This document shows positions 1,976 through 18,964 of a stretch of DNA of 25,268 nt, piece by piece (the stretch's first letter is position 1; the number at the start of each line of letters is the position of its first letter). Source of the DNA: a virus; the IMG/VR virus record IMGVR_UViG_3300036985_002634, positions 1-25,268 of that record, one strand, 5' to 3'. Under the pieces are notes generated by a model, which saw nothing but the letters and a program-made list of their open reading frames with translations, was not told the origin of the DNA and did no database searches. Position numbers and translations under genes: made by a program.

Positions 1976-2123
1976 GCCTCCCTAAGCAGTAGCCGGGTTA
2001 CTGCCCACACCATTTGACTCTATGAGGGATTGTCTGCGTCACTATTCAAGCCCTCTTCCAGAAAACAGAATGATTCGCACTCCCGCCAACGGCGGGCTTA
2101 CCATACGCCCGGCTCGCACGGTA
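1976..2123 (-). promoter_or_regulatory. Non-coding leader with two mutually exclusive hairpins
   Basis: No convincing gene lies between the tRNA and the gene starting at 1972. A perfect 6-bp stem with a 3-nt loop (CCCGCC/GGCGGG) occupies 2082-2096. A competing 5-bp stem (CGGGC/GCCCG) occupies 2093-2111 and shares bases 2093-2096, so only one can form at a time. No T-run directly follows either, so this is not a clean intrinsic terminator. An attenuator-like or tRNA-processing role is possible but unproven. Confidence 0.35.
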
Positions 2124-2191
2124 TAGCGGGGCGCAGATTCGAACTGCGTCGGACGGCTTATGAGACCGCCCCGTCTCCAAGACTCCCCGCG
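2124..2191 (-). tRNA. tRNA-like gene with CAU anticodon and a very short D-arm
   Basis: The gene starts 5 nt after the HNH stop codon. The acceptor stem pairs GCGGGG (2190-2185) with CCCCGC (2131-2126). The T-arm is canonical: CGCAG, TTCGAAT, CTGCG (2148-2132). The anticodon loop CTCATAA (2164-2158) carries CAT at 2162-2160, so Met-type or, if modified, Ile2. The oddities are a D-arm of about 11 nt (GTCT TGG AGAC, or a 3-bp stem with loop TTGGA), an anticodon stem extendable to 7 bp, a 2-4 nt variable region, and an unpaired C at position 1 facing T. CCA is not encoded. It may be a working minimal tRNA, a decaying one, or a tRNA-like element. Confidence 0.65.
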
Positions 2192-2196
2192 AAGTG

Positions 2197-2583
2197 TCAT
2201 TTCAGTTCGGCCCTCCGCTCCTCAAGCAGCGCAGCCAACTCTGGGTTGGAAAACTTGCGTGGCTTGGAGTAGTCGGCGTGGAGACGGTCTATCTCCTCCC
2301 GGCCCCACACCCTCTCGGCGTATCTCAGCAGTGGCATAGGGTCGTATTCATGAGTCATGTTGCAACCCCGATCTTGCCGATACAAGTTGCGCTTGTCCCA
2401 CCGGGTGGAGTAGGCGACACGGGAGAACAGGTGCCCGCACTGTGGATACTCTGTGCTCCCGCAGCAGACACACCGGTCGAAGTGCTTCATCACCCACTCC
2501 CGGCACACCGCATCCAAAGCCTTCACGAGCTTGCGGCGCTCCGTGGCGCGAGTCTTGACAGCACCTCCACGCTTCTTGCTCAT
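2197..2583 (-). CDS. NinG/Rap-like HNH-type protein
   Basis: A 128-aa protein. After a basic helical N-terminus (about 1-35) comes a zinc/HNH-like core: RCVCCGS (C38, C40, C41), QCGHLFSR (C49, H51), the stretch TRWDKRNLYRQDRGCN (C74), then MTHEY. This layout is typical of phage NinG (Rap) recombination proteins and related HNH nucleases, which act on branched DNA in phage recombination. The start has GGGGAGG at good spacing. A tRNA follows 5 nt after the stop, and the small gene from the radical SAM pair ends 11 nt upstream. Activity is inferred from the motif only. Confidence 0.78.
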   Translation of the reverse strand: MSKKRGGAVKTRATERRKLVKALDAVCREWVMKHFDRCVCCGSTEYPQCGHLFSRVAYSTRWDKRNLYRQDRGCNMTHEYDPMPLLRYAERVWGREEIDRLHADYSKPRKFSNPELAALLEERRAELK

Positions 2584-2594
2584 CGCCTCCCCTT

Positions 2595-2756
2595 TCAGTA
2601 TTGACAGTTCCCACCACCGCTCGATTGTTGCGGGGGGAGATCCATCGGGACCAGCCGCGCCGGCTTCCGCCCTTCCTCTTTGACAGCAGCACGGGCCTCT
2701 TCGCGGACCATCACGCGGATCGCTGCGAGCAACTCATCCATCTGTTGTTTCTTCAC
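2595..2756 (-). CDS. 53-aa protein coupled to the radical SAM gene; possible precursor peptide
   Basis: Starts at GTG 2756, 7 nt after AAGGA (2768-2764). Another GTG at 2762 overlaps the radical SAM stop as GTGA. The N-terminal 32 residues are helical and charged (KKQQMDELLAAIRVMVREEA). The tail is quite different: RLVPMDLPPQQSSGGGNCQY, with Pro, Gly, Ser and a single Cys. A helical leader plus a short Gly/Cys-rich tail directly downstream of a radical SAM enzyme resembles a RiPP precursor layout. That is a hypothesis: no known precursor family is recognised and no leader-binding domain is seen. It could simply be a small phage protein. Confidence 0.6.
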   Translation of the reverse strand: MKKQQMDELLAAIRVMVREEARAAVKEEGRKPARLVPMDLPPQQSSGGGNCQY

Positions 2757-2758
2757 GC

Positions 2759-3577
2759 TCACATCCTTTGGCTGGTTTGCCAGCCGTCGTAGTATCGCCC
2801 GTCGTAGTACAACACACGTTTGTCGTGCGGTGCCCGCGCCACCTTCGGCCATCCCCTCATCGGCGTCTGGAGACCGCACATCTGCCGGAAGTTCACCGCC
2901 ACGCCGTCGATTACCGCGCTCTTGTTGCAGCCCTCGACAAACGGGTTCTCGTTCAGCCCGTGCGCGTGCTCGAACATCGGAGCCAGACTGACGAACCGCT
3001 CCGCGTCGTTCTTCAACTCCGAGAAACGGACGCTCCATACGCCCGTGTCCTTCGCCCACGCGAGGTATTTGTGCACCGCCAGTTCGTCTGCTACGTGTCC
3101 GAGGATGATGTTGCAGTTGAACCGCACCTTGATCCCACGCCGTCGTAACTCGACCACGGCCCACTCCAGCGTCTCCTGATCCAGCACGATGCCCGTGATC
3201 TTCTGGTTCCGCCCCAGGTCGCTGTCGTGGATCGACACGTTGATCCCGGCCAGCCCGTCGAGCGTGCCCGCCACGAACTCCGCGTTGAACCGCGTCCCGT
3301 TCGTCGTCAGGTACATCGCCTTGTCGTCTCGCGTCTCGCGGAGCAACGGCTTGAGATCGGGATACAGCGTCGGCTCCCCGCCGAGCAGGATCACGCTCTC
3401 CGCGCGGTCCTCGCGGATCAGCTTCGCCAGCGTCGAGTAGCCCACCCGCGCCTCCGGCTTGAACCCGTCCTTCTCCACGCACCACGCGCAAGCGCCGTCG
3501 CACTTCTCGTAGAGCATCACCTCCAGCCAGTTGTCGAAGGCACCGCCGCAGAAGTTCTCGGGGTTGGGTACGCTCAC
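2759..3577 (-). CDS. Radical SAM enzyme
   Basis: A 272-aa protein starting at GTG 3577 (GTGA overlap with the upstream stop; GGGGAGGGG ribosome site). The iron-sulfur cluster motif is KCDGACAWC (C26, C30, C33). The SAM-binding motif follows at LLGGEPTLYP (residues 64-73), then YLTTNGTRF, INVSIHDSD and VRFNCNIILG, in the order expected for the radical SAM barrel. Two further cysteines in the C-terminal part (EGCNKS and RQMCGL) could ligate an auxiliary cluster, but there is no full SPASM set. The substrate is unknown. The flanking 68-aa and 53-aa genes overlap or abut it and are candidate substrates or partners. Codon use is visibly more GC-rich than in the replication genes, suggesting acquisition. 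Confidence 0.9.
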   Translation of the reverse strand: MSVPNPENFCGGAFDNWLEVMLYEKCDGACAWCVEKDGFKPEARVGYSTLAKLIREDRAESVILLGGEPTLYPDLKPLLRETRDDKAMYLTTNGTRFNAEFVAGTLDGLAGINVSIHDSDLGRNQKITGIVLDQETLEWAVVELRRRGIKVRFNCNIILGHVADELAVHKYLAWAKDTGVWSVRFSELKNDAERFVSLAPMFEHAHGLNENPFVEGCNKSAVIDGVAVNFRQMCGLQTPMRGWPKVARAPHDKRVLYYDGRYYDGWQTSQRM

Positions 3578-3780
3578 AGCAGCCCCTCCCCGCGATTGAG
3601 TCCACCACCACGGTCGAGCACTTCCTCGCACGACGCCGTGCGGTACTCCCGGCGCGGCCCTGCTTGCCGCCACGCCGGAACGTGTGGATGCACCCAACCA
3701 TCCGGCCAGCGCCAGTGCTGCGGGTACTTCCGCCACGCCTTCATGCGATCCACCCGGTACTGCTTGACCGCCACGCTCAC
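3574..3780 (-). CDS. Trp/Arg-rich 68-aa protein upstream of the radical SAM gene
   Basis: Starts at GTG 3780, with AGGTGATCC just upstream and a GTGA overlap with the previous stop. It is rich in Trp, Arg, His and Tyr (AWRKYPQHWRWPDGWVHPHV) and ends in a Gly-rich tail (DRGGGLNRGEGLL). Its stop overlaps the radical SAM start, so the two are probably translated together. No domain is recognised. Trp, Tyr, Arg and Lys are the residues crosslinked by several radical SAM peptide cyclases, so it is a second candidate substrate. It may instead be an unrelated basic nucleic-acid-binding protein. Confidence 0.6.
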   Translation of the reverse strand: MSVAVKQYRVDRMKAWRKYPQHWRWPDGWVHPHVPAWRQAGPRREYRTASCEEVLDRGGGLNRGEGLL

Positions 3781-4016
3781 GGGATCACCTGCACGAGAGC
3801 GATGGCACCGGCAGAATTCTGCCTTGTCACCACGAACGTGTGCCCGCCATCGGTGAAGGTACGGTAGTACACCCCGCGACCAAGGTTCACCCACGGGTCC
3901 GGGCCGGTCTCCGCTTCGGGCGAGCCTGAGGCGAACGCCGCCACCGCGACAGCCGCACACAGGAACGCTATCAGCACAAAGCCGACAGCAACGATGGCCG
4001 TTCTTTGCTCGCTCAC
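3777..4016 (-). CDS. 79-aa single-pass membrane protein, EQR-motif family
   Basis: Starts at GTG 4016 (GTGA overlap, GGGAGG site). The N-terminus MSEQRTAIVAVGF runs into a hydrophobic segment (about residues 8-32, VGFVLIAFLCAAVAVAAFAS). A short soluble domain follows, ending DGGHTFVVTRQNSAGAIALV. It resembles the next gene upstream (4013-4306) in both the N-terminal motif and the C-terminal DG-x-x-(F/Y)-V pattern, so the pair probably arose by tandem duplication. The likely topology is N-terminus in the cytoplasm with the C-terminal domain outside the inner membrane. Function unknown. Confidence 0.68.
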   Translation of the reverse strand: MSEQRTAIVAVGFVLIAFLCAAVAVAAFASGSPEAETGPDPWVNLGRGVYYRTFTDGGHTFVVTRQNSAGAIALVQVIP

Positions 4017-4306
4017 GGTTCCTCCCATTTCACGATCGCTGTTCCAGCCCCGTCGCCGTAGCCGACCGCCACCATATACTTCGTCCCGTCGATCTCGTAC
4101 AGGTACATCTTCGCGTAGGACACGGTGTTCGACTCCAGCAGCTTGATCCGCGACACCGGCACGACCTTCTCGACCGATGCCGTTACCCGCCGTGTCGCCT
4201 GCTGCTCCTGCTGCCCGTCCGCTCTGGAAAGGACAACAACAAACGTCAGCACCGCCAGCGCCACGGCGACGGCAATCCACACGATAGTCCTTCGCTGTTC
4301 GCTCAT
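4013..4306 (-). CDS. 97-aa single-pass membrane protein, EQR-motif family
   Basis: Begins MSEQRRTIVWIAVAV, with one transmembrane helix at about residues 8-27 (VWIAVAVALAVLTFVVVLS). A soluble domain follows that includes LYEIDGTKYMVAVGYGDG and ends IVKWEEP. The start has an extended GGGAGGTGGTGAT site. It is the longer paralogue of the next gene downstream, which it overlaps by 4 nt. Likely an inner-membrane protein with an exported C-terminal domain. Roles such as superinfection exclusion are common for such phage proteins, but nothing here identifies one. Confidence 0.75.
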   Translation of the reverse strand: MSEQRRTIVWIAVAVALAVLTFVVVLSRADGQQEQQATRRVTASVEKVVPVSRIKLLESNTVSYAKMYLYEIDGTKYMVAVGYGDGAGTAIVKWEEP

Positions 4307-4307
4307 A

Positions 4308-4451
4308 TCACCACCTCCCTACTGTGTTGTCGTTCGATTCGCGTGCCTTCGCCGCGACTTGCCGCTCGGTGATCCGCCCGATCTTGTAGCCGCAGAACCA
4401 CAACCCCGCCGCTGCCAGCGACACCACGATCACGTATGTCAGACCGGCCAT
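4308..4451 (-). CDS. 47-aa membrane peptide
   Basis: Begins MAGLTYVIVVSLAAAGLWF. A single hydrophobic helix covers about residues 4-22, followed by a basic and polar tail (KIGRITERQVAAKARESND). I chose ATG 4451 because GGAG lies 8 nt upstream; a longer in-frame start at 4535 would sit in the neighbour's coding region. Its 5' end overlaps the 3' end of the 37-aa gene. Part of a run of tiny membrane proteins between the lipoprotein and the radical SAM gene. Function unknown. Confidence 0.6.
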   Translation of the reverse strand: MAGLTYVIVVSLAAAGLWFCGYKIGRITERQVAAKARESNDNTVGRW

Positions 4452-4552
4452 GGTAACATCTCCGCCATCGATAGCGCCGCCACTACGACGCCGACCACAC
4501 ACCAGAATCGCAGCGACACCGCTGCGACCAGCCATTTCTCTTTCGTGCTCAT
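4439..4552 (-). CDS. 37-aa membrane peptide
   Basis: A very short gene starting at ATG 4552, which overlaps the previous stop as ATGA. It encodes MSTKEKWLVAAVSLRFWCVV, then a hydrophobic continuation (GVVVAALSM) and a short tail. One transmembrane helix is likely. The overlap at both ends (ATGA with the gene before, 13 nt with the gene after) fills what would otherwise be a roughly 100-nt gap and supports it being real. No family recognised. Confidence 0.55.
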   Translation of the reverse strand: MSTKEKWLVAAVSLRFWCVVGVVVAALSMAEMLPWPV

Positions 4553-5267: not shown

Positions 5268-5401
5268 CCTACCCTCCCCACCCCGAAGTGTAGCATGGAA
5301 GCCACCGTAAGTGCAAACAAAATAATGAAGCCAACCACGATTGCGGCGTCCCGCTGCTCGTGCGTCCACCCCCTACGCCAATGACGTACTGCCCTCAACA
5401 T
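5264..5401 (-). CDS. 45-aa single-pass membrane peptide, EQR-motif family
   Basis: A small gene occupying exactly the gap between the Ala-repeat gene and the lipoprotein gene. The ATG at 5401 overlaps the previous stop as TGATG, and its stop overlaps the lipoprotein start as ATGA. A basic N-terminus ([12 protein letters not shown]) is followed by THEQRDAAIVVGFIILFAL, a transmembrane helix with the same EQR...IV...GF pattern as the two paralogues at 3777-4306. Probably an inner-membrane peptide. Function unknown. Confidence 0.65.
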   Translation of the reverse strand: MLRAVRHWRRGWTHEQRDAAIVVGFIILFALTVASMLHFGVGRVG

Positions 5402-6141
5402 CACATCCTCCTCGCTACATAGAGAACACCGTTAACATCCGTCACGAGGATGTACCCACGGGTCCACACCTCCCACGCACGGCGACAGAAGGCAAGGTGT
5501 TTCGCCATACCTTCGCGGTCGGCCACGATGAGACATAGCGCCATATCCGCCGCATCCCTCGCCGCATCCACCGCCGCATCCCTCGCCGCAGCCCTCGCCG
5601 CATCCCTCGCCGCATCCCCCGCCGCAGCCCTCGCCGCATCCCACGCCGCAGCCCTCGCCGCAGCCATCGCCGCATCCACCGCCGCATCCCTCGCCGCATC
5701 CCTCGCCGCATCCCTCGCCGCATCCACCGCCGCATCCCTCGCCGCAGCCCTAGCCGCAGCCCACGTATCGAACACCTTCCACGCCTTCAGCGGCTTGGCG
5801 TGGTTGTCCAGCCACTTCACCGTCTTGATTGACTCCACGAAGTCCACCGCATCCAGCCACCACTGCGGATGCTTCACCTCCCGTAACAGCCGTGCAGAAC
5901 TGAACGCAGTCTTGTCGTCGTCGCCGTCCATGCCACCGCGCCCTTCGGCCTCGTAGCACTCGCACCCCAACGAGTACCACTTGAAAGGCTTCGTGGTCAG
6001 ATGTAGCCCGTTATGGCACTTGGTCACATCACCCGTAACCGTGTGCCACGCCCCCGGCTCCCCACCCTCGGGCAGAGACCACTGCATGGCCCCGCCGTTG
6101 CACGAAGCGCCAGCCTTGAGCACCTTGTACCACTTACCCAT
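5401..6141 (-). CDS. Phage protein with DUF7666-like N-terminus and Ala-rich repeat region
   Basis: A 246-aa protein. Residues 1-70 ([14 protein letters not shown]...[14 protein letters not shown]...[10 protein letters not shown]) resemble a small phage domain often annotated DUF7666; I recall this from memory and it needs checking. Residues about 127-200 are a low-complexity helix of four-residue units such as RDAA, VDAA and RAAA. The last 45 residues ([19 protein letters not shown]...) are normal globular sequence. ATG 6141 is preferred over GTG 6144 by its spacing from GGAGG. The repeat stays in frame because its DNA unit is 12 bp. Function unknown. Confidence 0.78.
5544..5763 (-). repeat. 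In-frame 12-bp minisatellite coding an Ala-rich helix
   Basis: About 18 diverged copies of a 12-bp unit, on the minus strand GATGCGGCGAGG (Asp-Ala-Ala-Arg), inside the coding region of the gene at 5401-6141. Copies differ mainly at the first two residues. The 12-bp period keeps the frame, so copy number could change by slippage or recombination without breaking the gene. Confidence 0.85.
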
Positions 6142-6437
6142 CACGGCCTCCTCAACTTAGCCGCCGTCACAAACCTCTGCCGCTCAATCTCGCAGAGGGA
6201 GATGTCATCGAAGCAGAAACTATGGGAATTACCCGGTCCCCCGCTCTTTGGTGAAGCCTGAAACAGATACACCACATCACCCGTGTACTTGTCTTTCCAC
6301 GGTTCCGGCAACGTAGCCCTCGGCATGGTCATCATTCCCGACACAAGGAAAGCCTCGTCAACGTAGACTTCGTAGTCCGTTAGCGTTGCGTGTACCGTGT
6401 GCCACCCTTCGGCCTTGGTCTTAGTAAACACTCCCAT
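6141..6437 (-). CDS. 98-aa hypothetical protein
   Basis: Begins MGVFTKTKAEGWHTVHATLT and includes LVSGMMTMPRATLPEPWKDK and HSFCFDDISLCEIERQRFVT. It looks like a compact, mostly beta-strand protein. The ATG at 6437 overlaps the previous stop as TGATG, with GGAGGAG upstream; a GTG at 6440 is less well spaced. No signal peptide or membrane segment. Family not recognised. Confidence 0.72.
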   Translation of the reverse strand: MGVFTKTKAEGWHTVHATLTDYEVYVDEAFLVSGMMTMPRATLPEPWKDKYTGDVVYLFQASPKSGGPGNSHSFCFDDISLCEIERQRFVTAAKLRRP

Positions 6438-6736
6438 CACACTCCTCCATTCCTTCCCGGATGCGGCCTGTGTTTCAAACCCCTTGATGCCTTATAGTAC
6501 CGCCGCAATTCCAACAACTGCGTCCTAACCGACTTCATGTCTATACCAAGTTCAGTCGCTATGTCAAACGTCGATACACCCTCCTTGTCCATCCTTACCA
6601 TAGCCCCTATCTCTGCATCAGAGTATTCAGGGACGGCCACCTTGTCTCGCCCATACCTAACCACCACCGTTGTCGCCGGTGAGCCGGTAATGACGTTATC
6701 CCAACTCTTAGGTCTGTCGTAGATACGTGTGTTCAT
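6437..6736 (-). CDS. Helix-turn-helix DNA-binding protein
   Basis: A 99-aa protein. The segment at about 38-80 (YSDAEIGAMVRMDKEGVSTF, then DIATELGIDMKSVRTQLLEL) is a clear helix-turn-helix of the sigma-region-4/homeodomain-like sort (alpha-turn-alpha with 'STFDIATELGIDMKSV'). The N-terminus carries VVVRYGRDKVAVPEYS, and the basic tail contains LKHRPHPGRNGG. The ATG overlaps the upstream stop as ATGA. It is likely a transcription regulator or replication accessory factor, since it sits two genes after the replication initiator. The target is unknown. Confidence 0.75.
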   Translation of the reverse strand: MNTRIYDRPKSWDNVITGSPATTVVVRYGRDKVAVPEYSDAEIGAMVRMDKEGVSTFDIATELGIDMKSVRTQLLELRRYYKASRGLKHRPHPGRNGGV

Positions 6737-7913: not shown

Positions 7914-8079
7914 ATCGCTCCCTAATGGTGAAGGCCACATGCATGTCTGTGGGGGCTTATTTCCACGCCGGGATAGGGTCCGGCTGACATGCACATGGCC
8001 TTCATCACCCCTATCATCAGTGTTGCGGAGCCTATCCCGCAACACTCCTCCCAAGTATGCGGCCTAACGCCGCTCCGTG
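7914..8079 (-). promoter_or_regulatory. Leader of the replication gene with interleaved inverted repeats
   Basis: A 166-nt gene-free region. A perfect 8-bp stem TGTTGCGG/CCGCAACA with an 8-nt loop spans 8022-8045. A pair of about 19-nt arms, TGAAGGCCAYRTGCATGTC and its complement (17 of 19 matching), lies at about 7929-7947 and 7986-8004. A third pair, CGGGATAGG/CCTATCCCG, lies at about 8031-8039 and 7969-7977. The second and third pairs interleave (A-B-A'-B'), so as RNA they could only coexist as a pseudoknot. Each may instead be an operator. Function inferred from position only. Confidence 0.55.
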
Positions 8080-8084
8080 TCAAG
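8055..8084 (-). promoter_or_regulatory. Possible sigma70 promoter for the replication gene
   Basis: A perfect -35 TTGACA (8084-8079) is followed after 18 bp by GCATAC, or after 19 bp by CATACT (8059-8054), a weak -10. It overlaps the stop codon of the upstream HTH gene. If used, transcription would begin near 8047 and produce a leader of about 130 nt holding the inverted repeats. Confidence 0.35.
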
Positions 8085-8283
8085 TCTCCACCAATCTATA
8101 CCTCGCCCACCGCTTCCCATCGCCCCTCTGCGCCTCCGTTATGATACGGTACCCGTCCTTGCGCAAGTCGTTGATACGGGCCGCCAACCGGAAGCACCGG
8201 TACTGCCCAAGGGCCTCCAAGGGTGTAATGTCACCGTGCTGCCGTAGGTGAATCAAAATCTGTGTCGATTGCTTTAGGCTCAT
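8080..8283 (-). CDS. Small winged helix-turn-helix protein
   Basis: A 67-aa protein with the common phage pattern LIHLRQHGDITPLEALGQYR, then CFRLAARINDLRKDGYRIIT and a basic tail (RGDGKRWARYRLVE). This matches the short 'helix-turn-helix domain' proteins found next to phage replication genes; they probably bind DNA through a wing. The start has GGAGG at good spacing and a TGATG overlap with the previous gene. It lies directly upstream of the structured leader of the replication gene, so it is a candidate regulator of that leader (inference). Confidence 0.82.
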   Translation of the reverse strand: MSLKQSTQILIHLRQHGDITPLEALGQYRCFRLAARINDLRKDGYRIITEAQRGDGKRWARYRLVET

Positions 8284-8513
8284 CAGTTCCTCCCTACCAA
8301 ATCGTCAGCCAACACACGTACCATACTCTCAAAATCAAGGTTGGGTTCAGGCTTGTACCCTATGTCTAAACCGGACACTTGGATTGTATGTGTCTTAGGG
8401 TCAAGGTAACCAATAAACGCCCACCCCATTCGCAATCTGTCTGTTGTAATGCAACGGGTAACTCGCCCATGCTCATCGACAAGGATGAATATGGTGGGCA
8501 CCGTAGTCACCAT
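8283..8513 (-). CDS. 76-aa hypothetical protein
   Basis: Begins MVTTVPTIFILVDEHGRVTR and continues GWAFIGYLDPKTHTIQVSGL, a probable small beta-rich fold; it ends ADDLVGRN. ATG 8513 has GGGAGGAACTG directly upstream and overlaps the previous stop as TGATG. The same initiation sequence occurs at the start of the next gene. Family not recognised. Confidence 0.7.
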   Translation of the reverse strand: MVTTVPTIFILVDEHGRVTRCITTDRLRMGWAFIGYLDPKTHTIQVSGLDIGYKPEPNLDFESMVRVLADDLVGRN

Positions 8514-8647
8514 CAGTTCCTCCCTGCCAACGTCGCCTTCCACTCCGCACGGCTCATCCCGTAGGCTATGAGCTTGGCGCAAGCCAAGCCTTCCTTCCAC
8601 ATCTTCAGCCGTGCCCTCCGTAGCCGGTAAGCCTTTATTCTACTCAC
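8513..8647 (-). CDS. 44-aa basic peptide
   Basis: Starts at GTG 8647, with GGAGGAAAGGC upstream and a GTGA junction in the sequence. It encodes MSRIKAYRLRRARLKMWKEG, then LACAKLIAYGMSRAEWKA and ends LAGRN. Very basic N-terminal helix and amphipathic middle; possibly nucleic-acid binding. Its tail (LAGRN plus stop and ribosome site) is nearly the same as that of the next gene (LVGRN), suggesting a duplicated junction. It overlaps the gene before it by 8 nt. Confidence 0.6.
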   Translation of the reverse strand: MSRIKAYRLRRARLKMWKEGLACAKLIAYGMSRAEWKATLAGRN

Positions 8648-8915
8648 GCCTTTCCTCCACTCCTCTTAGCACTGCCTCCAGTACAGCAGCGCCTTGCTCG
8701 GTGGCGTGTAGGCTCTCCACTCTGGTGAGCCCCCACTGCCACATGACAATCCACCCGCCGTCGATCTCGCCACACCACCGTACGTGCACCGTGCTCGGCT
8801 CCGGCGGCACACTCCCGGTCAGTAGCCATGTCAACAGCAGCACGCGCAGAGCACGGCGTATGTGCCGCCACCGCTCCGGGTCGGTGGTGTAGACGAGGCC
8901 GAAGCGGAGACTCAC
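8640..8915 (-). CDS. 91-aa hypothetical protein with one hydrophobic segment
   Basis: Starts at GTG 8915, after GGGAGG, overlapping the previous stop as GTGA. A basic stretch (DPERWRHIRR) precedes a hydrophobic helix (ALRVLLLTWLLTGSV, about residues 22-36). A domain follows with VHVRWCGEIDGGWIVMWQWG and a helical end (LEAVLRGVEERRE). Probably anchored in the membrane or membrane-associated. An ORF in another frame ending at 8644 is a shadow. Family not recognised. Confidence 0.62.
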   Translation of the reverse strand: MSLRFGLVYTTDPERWRHIRRALRVLLLTWLLTGSVPPEPSTVHVRWCGEIDGGWIVMWQWGLTRVESLHATEQGAAVLEAVLRGVEERRE

Positions 8916-9091
8916 ACCGCCTCCCATGCGTCGGTTGTCTCGTCGACATCTTCCTGCACATCCCCGTCCACCGAAAACCACATGAAGTACCGCGTTGTCT
9001 CACCGCATACAACGAGCACCCATTCGTTGCACCTACCATCCCGCCACACCGGCTTCCCCACGGGTGGGTATGCGTCTCGTAGGGCGGTCAT
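8912..9091 (-). CDS. 59-aa hypothetical protein
   Basis: Starts at ATG 9091, with GGGAGG about 5 nt upstream. It encodes MTALRDAYPPVGKPVWRDGR, then CNEWVLVVCGETTRYFMWFS and an acidic tail (VDGDVQEDVDETTDAWEAV). Likely a small beta-sheet protein. Its stop overlaps the next gene's GTG start. Two cysteines are present, but there is no metal motif. Function unknown. Confidence 0.65.
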   Translation of the reverse strand: MTALRDAYPPVGKPVWRDGRCNEWVLVVCGETTRYFMWFSVDGDVQEDVDETTDAWEAV

Positions 9092-9115
9092 CGGCGCCTC
9101 CCGCTACCTTTGCAA

Positions 9116-9190
9116 TCAGGGTTGGGTGCCATGCGTTTCCCACGCCTCCAGCGCCTCACGCGCCCGCCGTACCGCTTCGTCCCTATTCAT
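9116..9190 (-). CDS. Possible 24-aa micro-ORF
   Basis: ATG 9190 overlaps the previous stop as ATGA. The peptide is MNRDEAVRRAREALEAWETH plus GTQP, a helical, charged sequence resembling the N-terminal helices of small phage proteins. It stops 24 nt before the next start. It could be a remnant of a longer gene: another frame reads MAPNPDCKGSGRRR and overlaps the next ATG. Low confidence because of length. Confidence 0.33.
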   Translation of the reverse strand: MNRDEAVRRAREALEAWETHGTQP

Positions 9191-13994: not shown

Positions 13995-14486
13995 TCATAG
14001 GTAGACCAGACAAACGAAGATATACACGGTGCTCACGTCCGCGTTGTCTACTGCGTAGGCGAACTCATAGCTTGAGTTGAGCGGGACAACAAACCACGTC
14101 CATCCGAATATGGCTGTCGTTGGATTCTGAGTTACGGCATAGGTGTTCCCACTCCTGTCTTTGATTGATATGGCCCTACCCGCCGTCGTGGCGCTCCGCA
14201 TCTGCACATACCCTGCGACGGCCTTCGTACCCTCAGGTACGTATGCAGCGCACGGGACGGTGATGTCGGTAGTCACCGCTGGGTCGGCTGCGCTTACTAC
14301 GGCTACCGGCGTGATCTTATGGGGTATACCAATTGGAGTCGCAGTCCCGCTCTTGTCCAGCTTGAACGACGCCCGCGCCGTCCGGGTTATCTCCCCCTCC
14401 AGCCGCAGCTTCCCCTTTATTACTACGTCGTTGGCAAAGGTCTTTGTCCCGTACAGGACTTGGGCAGCAGAGGTAAGGAGGCCCAT
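13995..14486 (-). CDS. Putative small tail/fibre structural protein
   Basis: A 163-aa protein beginning MGLLTSAAQVLYGTKTFAND, then VVIKGKLRLEGEITRTARAS, the beta-repeat style common in phage tail fibres and decoration proteins. The C-terminal part (TTDITVPCAAYVPEGTKAVA ... GWTWFVVPLNSSYEFAY) is a small beta-sandwich-like region. It starts by TAATG overlap with the giant internal protein gene and follows the virion block. It has no enzyme motif. A receptor-binding or tail accessory role is inferred. Confidence 0.6.
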   Translation of the reverse strand: MGLLTSAAQVLYGTKTFANDVVIKGKLRLEGEITRTARASFKLDKSGTATPIGIPHKITPVAVVSAADPAVTTDITVPCAAYVPEGTKAVAGYVQMRSATTAGRAISIKDRSGNTYAVTQNPTTAIFGWTWFVVPLNSSYEFAYAVDNADVSTVYIFVCLVYL

Positions 14487-17400
14487 TACTCTTTCCTCTC
14501 CGGCTTGCCGCCGAACAGGGGCCAAAGGCTGGCTTCGTTTATCGCCTTTATCGTCCTGCTGATTAGTACGGCAGGCCCGCCCATAACCCTAATGACTTCC
14601 GGGAGCACCGCGTATACCCCTTGAAGAACCTCTTGCAAGTCAGCGTCCTTGACGCCTTCTGCGGCCTTGGCCACACCTTGGGCGGCTTTATACAGAGGGC
14701 CAACGTATGCCGACTGCGACCCGTAGATACCACGCCCTTCTATGAGACTTGAAAGTGGGTCGCCAATAAACGGGACTGCGGCAACGAACGTAGACAATAT
14801 GTCGGTGGCCAACTCCTTGAAGTTGACAGTCCCATCGTCCTTGCGCGGCAACCTCTTCCTTCCGATAACACCCATTACGATTCCGGTAGTGACAAGACCA
14901 CTGAGAGTCTTGGCAGTAAACACTGTCCGTTGAATGGTCCGCGCCGCCGACTTCGGGTCGTTCTTCTTGTACAGATTCATGTCCGCCATCATGTTGGCGT
15001 TCTGATTCAACTGGTTGTAAAGCATGTGCGCCAATCGCCCGGCATCCGTTTTGAGAATGTACGGCAATACAATGGCATCACCCTGCGGCTGCACCTTAAG
15101 GGTCTCCTCCTGAGCGCGTTCTACCGCCTCCGCTTCAGAAAGGCCCTCGTCTATAGCCGTGTCGTATACAGCCTTCCAACCTTGGAGAATTGTAGCGCCG
15201 TCAACAGCGCCGAGCAGCTTGCTGCCAAGCTCTGCAAACTTCTGCTGGACATTTTGTATCCCGGCAAGCCTGACCCACTCGTCAGCCTTGATAGACTCAA
15301 ACACTTGGTCCATTAGTCTGTCGAGAACGAATGGGTCTCTTGAAGTTACGAAGTCGTACAAGGTCTCGTCCGTACCGAAAGCGCGATTGGTTATCCCCTG
15401 GAGCATTCCCTTGACGGCTGTCTTTGCGTTTATGCTTCTACTGTATTGGAGTATCCCGATGATGGGTAAGTTTTTGAGAATCGTTGTCGGGTTGAGAGTG
15501 ATGCCGCCAGCGATGATACGCCCGCGCAACTTCATCAGCGCCCGCATCATGGGCTCCATCGTGTTCATGCTCGCCGGATTGGCCGAATGGACGATGTGTT
15601 TCTTCATCATGTCCACGATGTCCCTACCGTAAGCACGGGTCAGTTGGGCATTCACTTCCTTGTCAGCCATGATTGAGTTGGCCATCTTCACAGCCCGGTA
15701 CAGCCCCATCAGGCGCTCTTGCTCCTTGATGGAGTTTTCAAATATCTGCATGGCGTTCAAGTGCAGCTTAACCACGGCGCCCGTTCTGGATTTGAGAAAG
15801 TCCTTCGGCATAGCCCCCAACCCGGCTTGCGGATACCGTGTCTTGAATTCTTCAATGACAGCGTTAGGGTTGACGCCGAAGCCGGGGTTCTCCCCCACCT
15901 TGGGGAAGTAGTTTTCCACTACCTTGAACGGAACGCCCACCTCGTCCATGGCGAACTCCATTAGACGGTTCAAGTCGTTGCCACGATACGAGTCTATCAT
16001 GTAGTCACCAAGGGCCATCATCTTAGGACCGATGGCTTTCTTGAAGTCCTCTATGTGCTGCTCTGTGAAATTGTTACCTTCGGGGTCAGTAAGAGAGTTG
16101 TGGGTGTCTTCATTCTGGGACAGGATGTACACCCCAAGTCCTTCCGCCCCGTTGTACAAGTTGCCACCTACGGTGAAAACTCTCTTTATGTCAGATTCCT
16201 TGACGCCAAGGCTCTTCATCTTTTCGTGCCAAGCCGTAAGGCGGCGAACCGCGTTGACCTTCGATTCCCCTACGCCGTTCTTGAAAGCCGTCCACAGATA
16301 CTTCTTGAAGGTCGCACCTACCATTTCCGGCCATCGGTTGGGACGCAGATTGGCGAAGTTGGCCTTACCGATAAGCCCGGGGCCGCGCTGCATCTTAGCT
16401 TCGGCCTTGCCACCCCTCTGCTGGGGGATCGTCTTCTTCGGCTTGTTGGCGGCAGCTTCCAGACGAGCCTGCTCTTTGACCTTTGCCGTTTCTGCTTTCC
16501 ATTCAGCGACCTTGGCCTTGGTAGCCTTAAGCCCTTCTTCCCTTATGGCTTGAGCCTGCTCGTACAGAGACCGCAATTCACCAACCGTCAAATCCTCTAT
16601 CGCCTTGGCGTCGAGAACACGTCTGACCGTAGGCGGGGCTACGCTGTTCTTGTCTATGCCGTAGTTGTAAAGGACGGTCTGCGCCTCTCGGATATTCTTG
16701 CTGATTCGGACATGCCAATTCTTCTGTAGTTCAGCAAGCTGTGTGGCAGCCCGTCCACCTATCCCCGCCGTAGCCTTGTGCATGAATCCCGTTATCAGAG
16801 CCTTGGCCAACTCCACCTTCTTGCGAATGTTGAGTTCAGTAACTTCGTCTGTCCCTTGCTTGACTACCGACATGTCGCCAATAACGTTCTTGACCGTCTC
16901 GGCATCAATGCCTCGAATGTTCCCCGTGTACCCTTCTGCCGTCTCGGCGGTAAGGTTGTCTACCCTGCTCTTGCCCCACCACAGATCACGGGAAGATTCC
17001 TCGGCTTTCAGAGCTTGGTCTATTTGGGCGTCGGCATTCTGGGTCTCCATCTGCTGGCGCTCAAACGGTGTTGCGCTTGCCGGTATCTCCTCAAGAACCG
17101 GCTTGGGGACAGCTTCGTATACTCGTTCGTAGTATTCCTGAGTCTTAATCAACTCCGGGTTAATAGTCCTCGCCCCACGGCCCTCGGCTATAGCCGGTAT
17201 CTCTATCGTAAGGGTTTGGACTTGGCTCACGAAGTCGTCCACCGTGCCGCCGGAAGAAACGACATCCGCAGCCATGGCCGACAGTTCGCCTCTTAGCTTC
17301 TTTTCCTCTTGCGCCCACACCACACCGTTTTCAGCATGAGCCGCTAACACTTCCGACGCCACCCACTCACCCTTAATTACCTCGGCGTGGACCGTAGCTT

Positions 17401-18964
17401 GGGGGTTCTCTCTAATGATTCGGTTGCGAGCCGTATCGGGGACTGCCGGGGCTGGAGTGCCTTCGGGGGCTACAACGGCCTCTGTAGGGGCAGGAGGAGC
17501 CTCTACGGTGGCTTCCACGGCCCGTGCCTGGGCCTCTGCCTGCTCTGCCGCCATCCCGGCAGCAAAGATGGCATCCTTGGCCTTGGCCGCTTCTACTAGA
17601 GCGATAGCCGCCTCTGCCGTGGGTGCCGTAGCCATCGTAGCCTTGGCTTCCGTAAACGCACTCTCTACCGTAGCCGTAGCAGCAGTACGAGCCTCGGGTG
17701 GGGCCGTAGGGTCTATTGCTTGCTCTACAGCATCACGAATAGCAGAAGGAGGAGTGACTACGGCGGCAGGAGCCGCACCGGAAGTCTTGGCCGTTGTCTT
17801 GGATTCACCAATCCCACGGATACCTTCCGTCAAGCCGGGGAGAATACCAGCAGCGAGGAACGTAGGCCACTGCTGAAATACTTGCTTGTATCTTGACGCC
17901 AAGTCCTGTTCCTGCTCAACCGAGTATCCTTCGGATTCGGCTTGGATACGGGCAGCCTTCTCAGCAAGAAACGTAGTTGTCTCTTGGGTCAGTTCTTCCC
18001 CTAATTCTTGCCCACCGCCGCCAATGACTTTGGCCGCAGCCCTTACCGCAAGCTGCGTCAACGCACCATCCCATCCCAATCGTTCGCCAAGCACCTTCAA
18101 GACGCTCTTCGCTTTACCCTTGAACGGCCCAAGCAGTTTTACCAAAGTGGCGTCGCTTAGAAGCTCAATACCCGAATTGATAGCGCCAGCAGTATCAGAG
18201 TACGGGCCAGCCAGTTCATGCGGCACCCCGGCGTCTATCATTTTCCAATAGGCAGACCCTCCCTCTTGTCTACCAATCCCGGTAGCCTGGGTAGCCGTCT
18301 TGGTTAGCAACTGAGCTTGCTTTCGGAACTGGAACGTCAGCGCGTTCTTGGTGAACTCGTAGATGGTATCGCCAATCTGGTTTATCAGATTAGGGTTGCG
18401 TCCAGGCGCAGCCAGTTGCGACCCAACCGTCGCTACCTGTTGCCCAGCCAAGTTGACTGCACCAAGGCCAATCCTGCCAAGAACATTTCGCCTGGATTGG
18501 TCCCCGCTTGGAATCTGCGCTTCAAGTTCCCGGGCCTCTTCTCGCAACTTGGCCCGTTCGTCCGGGTCAGCCGTGCTTCGCGCCTTGCTCCCAAGTTCAC
18601 CTATGCGATTCTGGAGCATAACGGTTTTCCACTCATCCGATATGGCGACCCCGTAGCCTTTTAGTTTGGGATCGGATGAGTTACTCATCGCCTGCGCCTG
18701 ACTCATGGCTTGCCACACCGGAACGCCCAACCCTTCGGAAAGGGCTATGGCGGTGTCGTAGGTGGACTGCACCTTGTCTGGTTCAGAGTGTTGCGCCGCA
18801 AGCCCCGCCGGGATAGGCGGGAGTGACGTGGGGATATCTTGCTGTATCGAAGGCAGCGGCGGTAACGTCTCTTCGGTAATAGGGACTACTGACGGAAGAG
18901 GCGGCAGTTGAGGAGTGGTATCTTCTACCGTTGTTGGGAGTTGAGGGAGAACCCGGTCGCTCAT
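14486..18964 (-). CDS. Large internal virion/ejection protein, T7 gp16-like position
   Basis: A 1,492-aa protein, third of three internal virion genes. The N-terminus has repeated proline motifs (LPQLP, QLPPLPSVVP, LPPLPS, LPPIPAG). A long Ala/Glu-rich section (about 430-530) precedes a segment starting NRIIRENPQATVHAEVIKGE. The C-terminal 500 residues resemble large phage ejection or polyvalent proteins (FFKVVENYFPK-type motif as VPFKVVENYFPKVGENPGFG; LYNQLNQNANMMADMNLYKK; TGIVMGVIGRKRLPRKDDG). I see no transglycosylase motif like the one at the N-terminus of T7 gp16. Likely ejected into the cell to form a DNA conduit. Confidence 0.8.
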   Translation of the reverse strand: MSDRVLPQLPTTVEDTTPQLPPLPSVVPITEETLPPLPSIQQDIPTSLPPIPAGLAAQHSEPDKVQSTYDTAIALSEGLGVPVWQAMSQAQAMSNSSDPKLKGYGVAISDEWKTVMLQNRIGELGSKARSTADPDERAKLREEARELEAQIPSGDQSRRNVLGRIGLGAVNLAGQQVATVGSQLAAPGRNPNLINQIGDTIYEFTKNALTFQFRKQAQLLTKTATQATGIGRQEGGSAYWKMIDAGVPHELAGPYSDTAGAINSGIELLSDATLVKLLGPFKGKAKSVLKVLGERLGWDGALTQLAVRAAAKVIGGGGQELGEELTQETTTFLAEKAARIQAESEGYSVEQEQDLASRYKQVFQQWPTFLAAGILPGLTEGIRGIGESKTTAKTSGAAPAAVVTPPSAIRDAVEQAIDPTAPPEARTAATATVESAFTEAKATMATAPTAEAAIALVEAAKAKDAIFAAGMAAEQAEAQARAVEATVEAPPAPTEAVVAPEGTPAPAVPDTARNRIIRENPQATVHAEVIKGEWVASEVLAAHAENGVVWAQEEKKLRGELSAMAADVVSSGGTVDDFVSQVQTLTIEIPAIAEGRGARTINPELIKTQEYYERVYEAVPKPVLEEIPASATPFERQQMETQNADAQIDQALKAEESSRDLWWGKSRVDNLTAETAEGYTGNIRGIDAETVKNVIGDMSVVKQGTDEVTELNIRKKVELAKALITGFMHKATAGIGGRAATQLAELQKNWHVRISKNIREAQTVLYNYGIDKNSVAPPTVRRVLDAKAIEDLTVGELRSLYEQAQAIREEGLKATKAKVAEWKAETAKVKEQARLEAAANKPKKTIPQQRGGKAEAKMQRGPGLIGKANFANLRPNRWPEMVGATFKKYLWTAFKNGVGESKVNAVRRLTAWHEKMKSLGVKESDIKRVFTVGGNLYNGAEGLGVYILSQNEDTHNSLTDPEGNNFTEQHIEDFKKAIGPKMMALGDYMIDSYRGNDLNRLMEFAMDEVGVPFKVVENYFPKVGENPGFGVNPNAVIEEFKTRYPQAGLGAMPKDFLKSRTGAVVKLHLNAMQIFENSIKEQERLMGLYRAVKMANSIMADKEVNAQLTRAYGRDIVDMMKKHIVHSANPASMNTMEPMMRALMKLRGRIIAGGITLNPTTILKNLPIIGILQYSRSINAKTAVKGMLQGITNRAFGTDETLYDFVTSRDPFVLDRLMDQVFESIKADEWVRLAGIQNVQQKFAELGSKLLGAVDGATILQGWKAVYDTAIDEGLSEAEAVERAQEETLKVQPQGDAIVLPYILKTDAGRLAHMLYNQLNQNANMMADMNLYKKNDPKSAARTIQRTVFTAKTLSGLVTTGIVMGVIGRKRLPRKDDGTVNFKELATDILSTFVAAVPFIGDPLSSLIEGRGIYGSQSAYVGPLYKAAQGVAKAAEGVKDADLQEVLQGVYAVLPEVIRVMGGPAVLISRTIKAINEASLWPLFGGKPERKE

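Follow-up and report, generated by a model that had tools for sequence, protein, structure and literature searches.

The locus and its three genes

Does a phage radical SAM enzyme modify a short protein encoded beside it? The question is raised by a 25-kb virus fragment from IMG/VR (record IMGVR_UViG_3300036985_002634; the whole stretch of 25,268 nucleotides is hereafter called the window); two of its proteins, a tail protein and a tail tubular protein, have matches to podovirus-type PHROGs. The minus strand holds three consecutive ORFs in the order upstream small ORF, radical SAM gene, and downstream small ORF, and the initial annotation had proposed both small proteins as possible substrates of the enzyme. 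The upstream ORF (3574-3777 or 3574-3780, minus strand) encodes 67 or 68 aa rich in W, R, and Y, and the enzyme gene (2759-3577, minus strand), which has a GTG start preceded by GGGGAGGGG, encodes 272 aa. The translation of the downstream ORF (2595-2756 or 2595-2762, minus strand) has 53 or 55 aa from either of two GTG starts; the GTG at 2756 is the likelier start, because the ribosome-binding site AAAGGA (2764-2769, minus strand) lies 7 nt upstream of it. Scans with PHROGs, NCBIfam, PADLOC, and Pfam returned no convincing family match for either small protein.

The three-gene unit first described, with a radical SAM enzyme carrying C26/C30/C33 and GGEP at residues 66-69 and a downstream 53-aa protein ending in SSGGGNCQY, was confirmed by the ORFs and by the Pfam scan. 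Indeed, the enzyme scored 44.8 bits against the Pfam Radical_SAM family (cut-off 29.5), the sole Pfam family above its cut-off, and 2759-3577 (minus strand) is a genuine radical SAM gene. We rejected gene overlap as evidence of coupling: in this part of the phage, roughly every second gene junction has an overlap of one or four bases, so those of the trio are no sign of a special link.

In the translated enzyme, the SAM [4Fe-4S] motif C26-x3-C30-x2-C33 (3479-3502, minus strand) is invariant in alignments A2 and A6, and the GGEP motif (3371-3382, minus strand) is near-invariant in the alignments. The initial annotation had noted two extra C-terminal cysteines, which are C217 (2927-2929, minus strand) and C234 (in MCGLQT; 2876-2878, minus strand), but had missed a third, the N-terminal C10 (3548-3550, minus strand). 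Each of the three is invariant in 15 relatives and is a candidate ligand of an auxiliary cluster. Near the C-terminus, residues 255-266 form the family signature VLYYDGRYYDGW (2780-2815, minus strand; alignments A3 and A6).

Just downstream of the radical SAM pair lie a NinG/Rap-like endonuclease gene and then a tRNA-Met (CAT) (2123-2583, minus strand). A tRNA link was considered on the basis of this one tRNA-Met and was set aside, as neighbours vary among relatives. Elsewhere in the window, a 247-aa protein with long repeats (5401-6144, minus strand) has weak PHROG matches to families without functional annotation, and a 1,492-aa protein without a PHROG match (14486-18964, minus strand) is encoded between the tail and lysis genes.

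A recurrent cysteine tail in close relatives

Single-sequence searches of viral_contigs and genome_contigs returned no relatives, and an exact search with a degenerate DNA pattern found nothing. Relatives were found by alignment-based searches (A1-A3) with distant phage homologues, and later alignments added more. Among them, seven other enzymes are window-like (L008, L009, L010, L037 with its copies L038 and L039, L040, L120, and L121); these enzymes are 42-48% identical, and their contigs are between 14 and 459 kb long.

All eight window-like systems have a C-terminal C-x-Y, in which the middle residue and the codons vary. In six of the eight, the tail is fused to the enzyme (L008 GCQY, L010 GCHY, L037 GCNY, L040 GCDY, L120 GCRY, and L121 GCVY), and in two it stands in a separate ORF, downstream in the window (NCQY) and upstream in L009 (GCVY). 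As background, when ORFs with 60 aa or more were called mechanically in the collected loci, 13 of the 5,095 ended in C-x-Y, family members included. The fused relatives run on from the signature VLYYDG..Y.GW into a helical module and then into the tail. The window peptide likewise consists of a helical segment and a Gly-rich tail, the proposed core SSGGGNCQY (2598-2624, minus strand; Cys codon 2604-2606, Tyr codon 2598-2600). When it was aligned with seven relatives (A8), A23, G49, C53, and Y55 were invariant (55-aa numbering). This alignment, weak in the helix and exact in the tail, marks the window peptide as the split counterpart of the fused C-terminal modules. The L009 partner, a 59-aa protein encoded directly upstream of its enzyme, has a helical hairpin that scores above the Pfam cut-off as a SHOCT-like domain; in L008, the fused module hits this same Pfam family below the cut-off.

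The idea that both small neighbours are substrates is thus supported for one of them. The downstream gene belongs to a system with a C-x-Y tail in 8/8 cases, whereas the 67/68-aa upstream ORF stands beside none of the seven other window-like enzymes and was rejected as a second partner. In the same way, the expected linkage of three genes across related phages proved to be a linkage of the enzyme with its tail module and does not extend to the upstream ORF. Relatives lacking both small genes, which the initial annotation had regarded as speaking against peptide modification, are such only superficially, since those without a separate small ORF have the tail fused to the enzyme. For the downstream gene, peptide modification, proposed from the recurrent tail, is the best-supported reading.

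Other genes around the window-like enzymes were also recorded. On the 459-kb contig of L009, tandem small Cys-containing paralogues with ends like tCxExIIxxIIE flank the radical SAM gene (3286-4461 and 6128-6621). Around that of L121, on a 236-kb phage contig, there are tandem paralogues of ~75 aa with C-termini like FRxLLxxxI (44-2971 and 8045-9140). An RtcB-like gene lies upstream of the radical SAM gene in L040, and in Erwinia phage Y3 and Yersinia phage fHe-Yen9-02 (L006 and L140) the radical SAM gene with its tail is directly preceded by an RNA 2'-phosphotransferase gene. A link to RNA through these genes was rejected, their recurrence being too weak.

Tails across the wider family

The system is wider than the window and is unnamed in the libraries searched. 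Gly/Ser-rich tails with Cys are also present with more distant phage enzymes, either on the enzyme or in a neighbouring ORF. In Erwinia jumbo phages and a Yersinia phage, the tail is fused and contains from two to four copies of C-x-[Y/F]. In the tails of ten Erwinia-type jumbo phages, each of the 31 Cys that are followed by a residue at +2 has Y or F in that position, over a background of ~6% Y+F in the tails, with fewer independent events than counted because the sequences are related. These tails are 21% identical, compared with 63% for the enzymes of the same ten phages.

Megaphage enzymes have a homologous ORF of 86-129 aa directly upstream, in which the C-terminal Cys is invariant and the end is usually DGCGxGG..SSC-like; in L017, two ORFs of this partner family lie upstream in tandem. 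The i+2 aromatic residue is present in the window-like and Erwinia-type groups and not in the megaphage group, in which tails end in ..SC. The extra conserved cysteines of the enzyme number three in the window-like and megaphage groups, as an equivalent trio, and only two in the other groups. Furthermore, L045 and L048 have fused GGGC tails, and a 29-aa ORF downstream in L053 ends in GCGGGGGCGNS. The member in Lak phage B1 (L141) and a related contig (L042) is divergent, and its Cys tail is encoded by an ORF of its own downstream of the enzyme; in Lak phage B1, this ORF has 166 aa and ends in SGGCGNTYGSPYHHWSGGC.

L013 and its near-copy L002 have the enzyme without a recognisable tail nearby. 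The cellular relatives, from Clostridia and Bacilli genomes, lack a C-x-Y tail, and their enzymes come in tandem pairs: in L058, L062, L064, and L069, the two radical SAM genes of the tandem are related and share the cysteine framework, and in L062, L064, and L069 the second radical SAM paralogue ends in DRGAC.

To count the tails, we used a rule that accepts C-x-[Y/F] ends or Gly/Ser-rich tails with two Cys. It was positive in 31 of 35 family loci, in 9 of 169 control genes taken from these loci, and in 0 of 24 other radical SAM loci; the nominal p values of this comparison are not to be taken literally, because both the rule and the limits of the family were chosen post hoc, with the tails already known, and because the loci are related. 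The value of 31/35 comes from a replacement for an earlier, stricter composition rule that had missed most window-like tails. L014, L017, and L028 have visible Cys tails yet fail the rule.

In the tree of the enzyme domain, enzymes with fused, upstream, and downstream tails are interspersed, and the arrangement switches several times. Even the window-like clade (support 97/93) includes six fused members, one upstream, and one downstream. Repeated fusion or fission of two genes is a classic mark of functional linkage. The literature searched, in which subscription journals were mostly missing, described no phage system of this kind.

Family models and predicted fold

No curated family covers the window enzyme together with its tail system. 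A clear match to an enzyme such as QueE or MoaA had been named at the outset as an outcome that would speak against peptide modification. No such match to QueE, MoaA, or viperin was found: among NCBIfam models, the window enzyme scored 48.3 bits with MoaA (curated cut-off 284), 31.0 bits with viperin (equivalog cut-off 180), and 20.5-21.7 bits with the QueE models (cut-offs 260-300), and every other NCBIfam model listed was likewise far below its curated cut-off. The 25 best NCBIfam matches for this enzyme do not include the mycofactocin maturase model. Nine relatives were scanned as well, and among the matches listed none reached a curated NCBIfam cut-off. As the initial annotation had noted, there was no leader-binding domain: the Pfam scan found no RRE in the window enzyme or in the partners. 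The RRE domain is common, although not universal, in RiPP systems with a radical SAM maturase.

AlphaFold2 gave models with a confident barrel for L120 (window-like, fused; mean pLDDT 87) and L022 (Erwinia-type; mean pLDDT 77). In both, the tail is unfolded (pLDDT <50) and is thus predicted to be disordered; these are single-chain models, with which transient docking is still compatible. The closest solved fold is MoaA (Foldseek E 4e-12; Z 18.6, rmsd 3.6, 241 aligned), tied in Z with viperin (Z 18.3, rmsd 3.1, 217 aligned). The fold neighbours listed also include enzymes that modify peptides (SuiB, SkfB, PqqE, EpeE, and CteB), with Z from 13.9 to 17.9. MoaA and viperin act on nucleotides. The predicted fold by itself cannot pick between a nucleotide and a peptide substrate.

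These two closest folds, together with the MoaA score and the 39.5 bits obtained with pVip, the PADLOC viperin model, are what would favour a viperin- or MoaA-like nucleotide enzyme, engaged in ddhNTP or cyclic nucleotide synthesis, with a tail that merely docks to another protein. We consider this quite improbable, as the scores stay far under the viperin and MoaA cut-offs and most matches are confined to the core barrel, which is all that pVip covers, and as the C-terminal region with C217, C234, and YYDG-YDGW is matched by no such model.

The tail as a putative substrate

The reading that we prefer, and regard as probable, is that the Cys-containing tail is the substrate of the enzyme, modified in cis or in trans in a minimal phage RiPP-like system. 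The tail behaves like a substrate core because it is flexible, holds the sole strictly conserved residues of a fast-changing segment, is repeated, and is supplied in cis or in trans. The enzyme would be the maturase of this phage-encoded system, and its substrate tail would come in trans from the 53/55-aa neighbour, as in the window, or in cis from the extended enzyme itself, as in most relatives. In the small protein, the helical part would serve as the leader or for docking, with the flexible GGG-x-C-x-Y tail forming the core. The 5'-deoxyadenosyl radical produced when SAM is cleaved at C26/C30/C33 would take a hydrogen from one of the tail residues. An auxiliary cluster with C10, C217, and C234 as its ligands could offer an open iron for the tail Cys to bind, and this Cys could form a thioether close to the i+2 aromatic. 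The Cys thioether is a first guess, made because the conserved Cys trio could hold an open-site cluster, the proposed binder of the substrate Cys in SkfB- and CteB-type enzymes (PMC8326336).

Several observations count against the substrate reading, namely the lack of an RRE in the Pfam scan and of an evident peptidase or exporter in the ORF lists around five relatives, MoaA and viperin as the closest folds, L013 and L002 with no tail recognisable nearby, the megaphage tails without an i+2 aromatic, and the presence of only two extra conserved Cys outside the window-like and megaphage groups. Alternatively, the tail could take part in catalysis, whether supplied in cis or in trans, by gating the radical, donating an H atom, carrying sulfur, or adding an Fe-S ligand, with a small molecule or nucleic acid as the true substrate. 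The C-terminal GG tail of MoaA, the closest fold (tied with viperin), probably enters the active site as a flexible arm, and Cys and Tyr are radical-competent residues. We hold this to be unlikely: the two to four C-x-[Y/F] copies per tail, with fast divergence elsewhere, suit a substrate better, as do the two tandem partner ORFs beside one enzyme in L017, and the MoaA models are far below cut-off. Several precursors beside one enzyme are a trait of multi-precursor RiPP systems.

A conserved end on the enzyme or on its partner also recalls targeting signals. In eukaryotes, Fe-S delivery is steered by the tripeptide [LIM]-[DES]-[WF] at the C-terminus of client proteins or of adaptors (PMC10623007), and the C-terminal C-x-Y could similarly be a tag for an Fe-S assembly factor of the host or the phage, which would be recruited directly or with the small protein as an adaptor. 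This is very improbable, since the motif is internal and repeated in Erwinia-type tails and differs in the megaphage group, and prokaryotic orthologues are described as lacking the tripeptide (PMC10623007).

Returning to the substrate reading, the ORF lists around five relatives were read by eye, and no peptidase or exporter was noticed; for this reason, the product may remain inside the infected cell, although the host could encode such functions. More tentatively, and with less confidence than in the substrate reading itself, it is possible that these genes form a widespread, undescribed phage class modifying its own or a partner's Cys-x-aromatic tail by radical chemistry, with a mature product that is a modified phage protein kept inside the cell and not secreted as a peptide, perhaps bearing a new crosslink or redox cofactor used in infection. 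If so, phages from small podovirus-like ones to megaphages would carry their own radical-SAM peptide-modification modules, fused and split, and would be a new source of enzyme chemistry. Phage radical SAM genes now annotated as "hypothetical" or "MoaA" would gain a first substrate hypothesis, and the role of a modified Cys-x-Tyr tail in the infected cell would become a testable question.

Comparison with known systems

MoaA and viperin provide the closest structures of the enzyme core; unlike them, the window enzyme has its own C-terminal signature, ends in QTSQRM without the C-terminal GG of MoaA, and scores far under their curated cut-offs. The mycofactocin precursor has an invariant CGVY C-terminus (PMC3023750), and the MftA/MftC pair resembles the window in having a small peptide, with a C-terminal motif ending in Tyr and a nearby Cys, beside a radical SAM gene. 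The window peptide, however, ends in GNCQY, not CGVY, and there is no mycofactocin operon.

The sactipeptide and ranthipeptide maturases SkfB, CteB, and PapB share with the window enzyme a radical SAM fold match, extra C-terminal Cys, and a Cys-containing substrate, which is here a proposed one. The phage enzymes differ from them in that the searches found neither an RRE nor a canonical SPASM motif, in reaching no curated model, and in having the core fused to the enzyme in most members.

The last trait is shared with the borosins, in which the core peptide is either fused to the enzyme (OphMA-type) or a separate neighbour (SonM/SonA) (PMC8429565). Borosin enzymes are SAM N-methyltransferases, and the Pfam scan found no alpha-N-methyltransferase domain in the window enzyme; here, by contrast, the enzyme is a radical SAM protein, the carriers are phages, and the putative core is Cys-x-aromatic. 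The analogy is in architecture alone: in both systems, the core, a putative one in the phages, is placed at the C-terminus of the enzyme or encoded as a separate neighbouring peptide.
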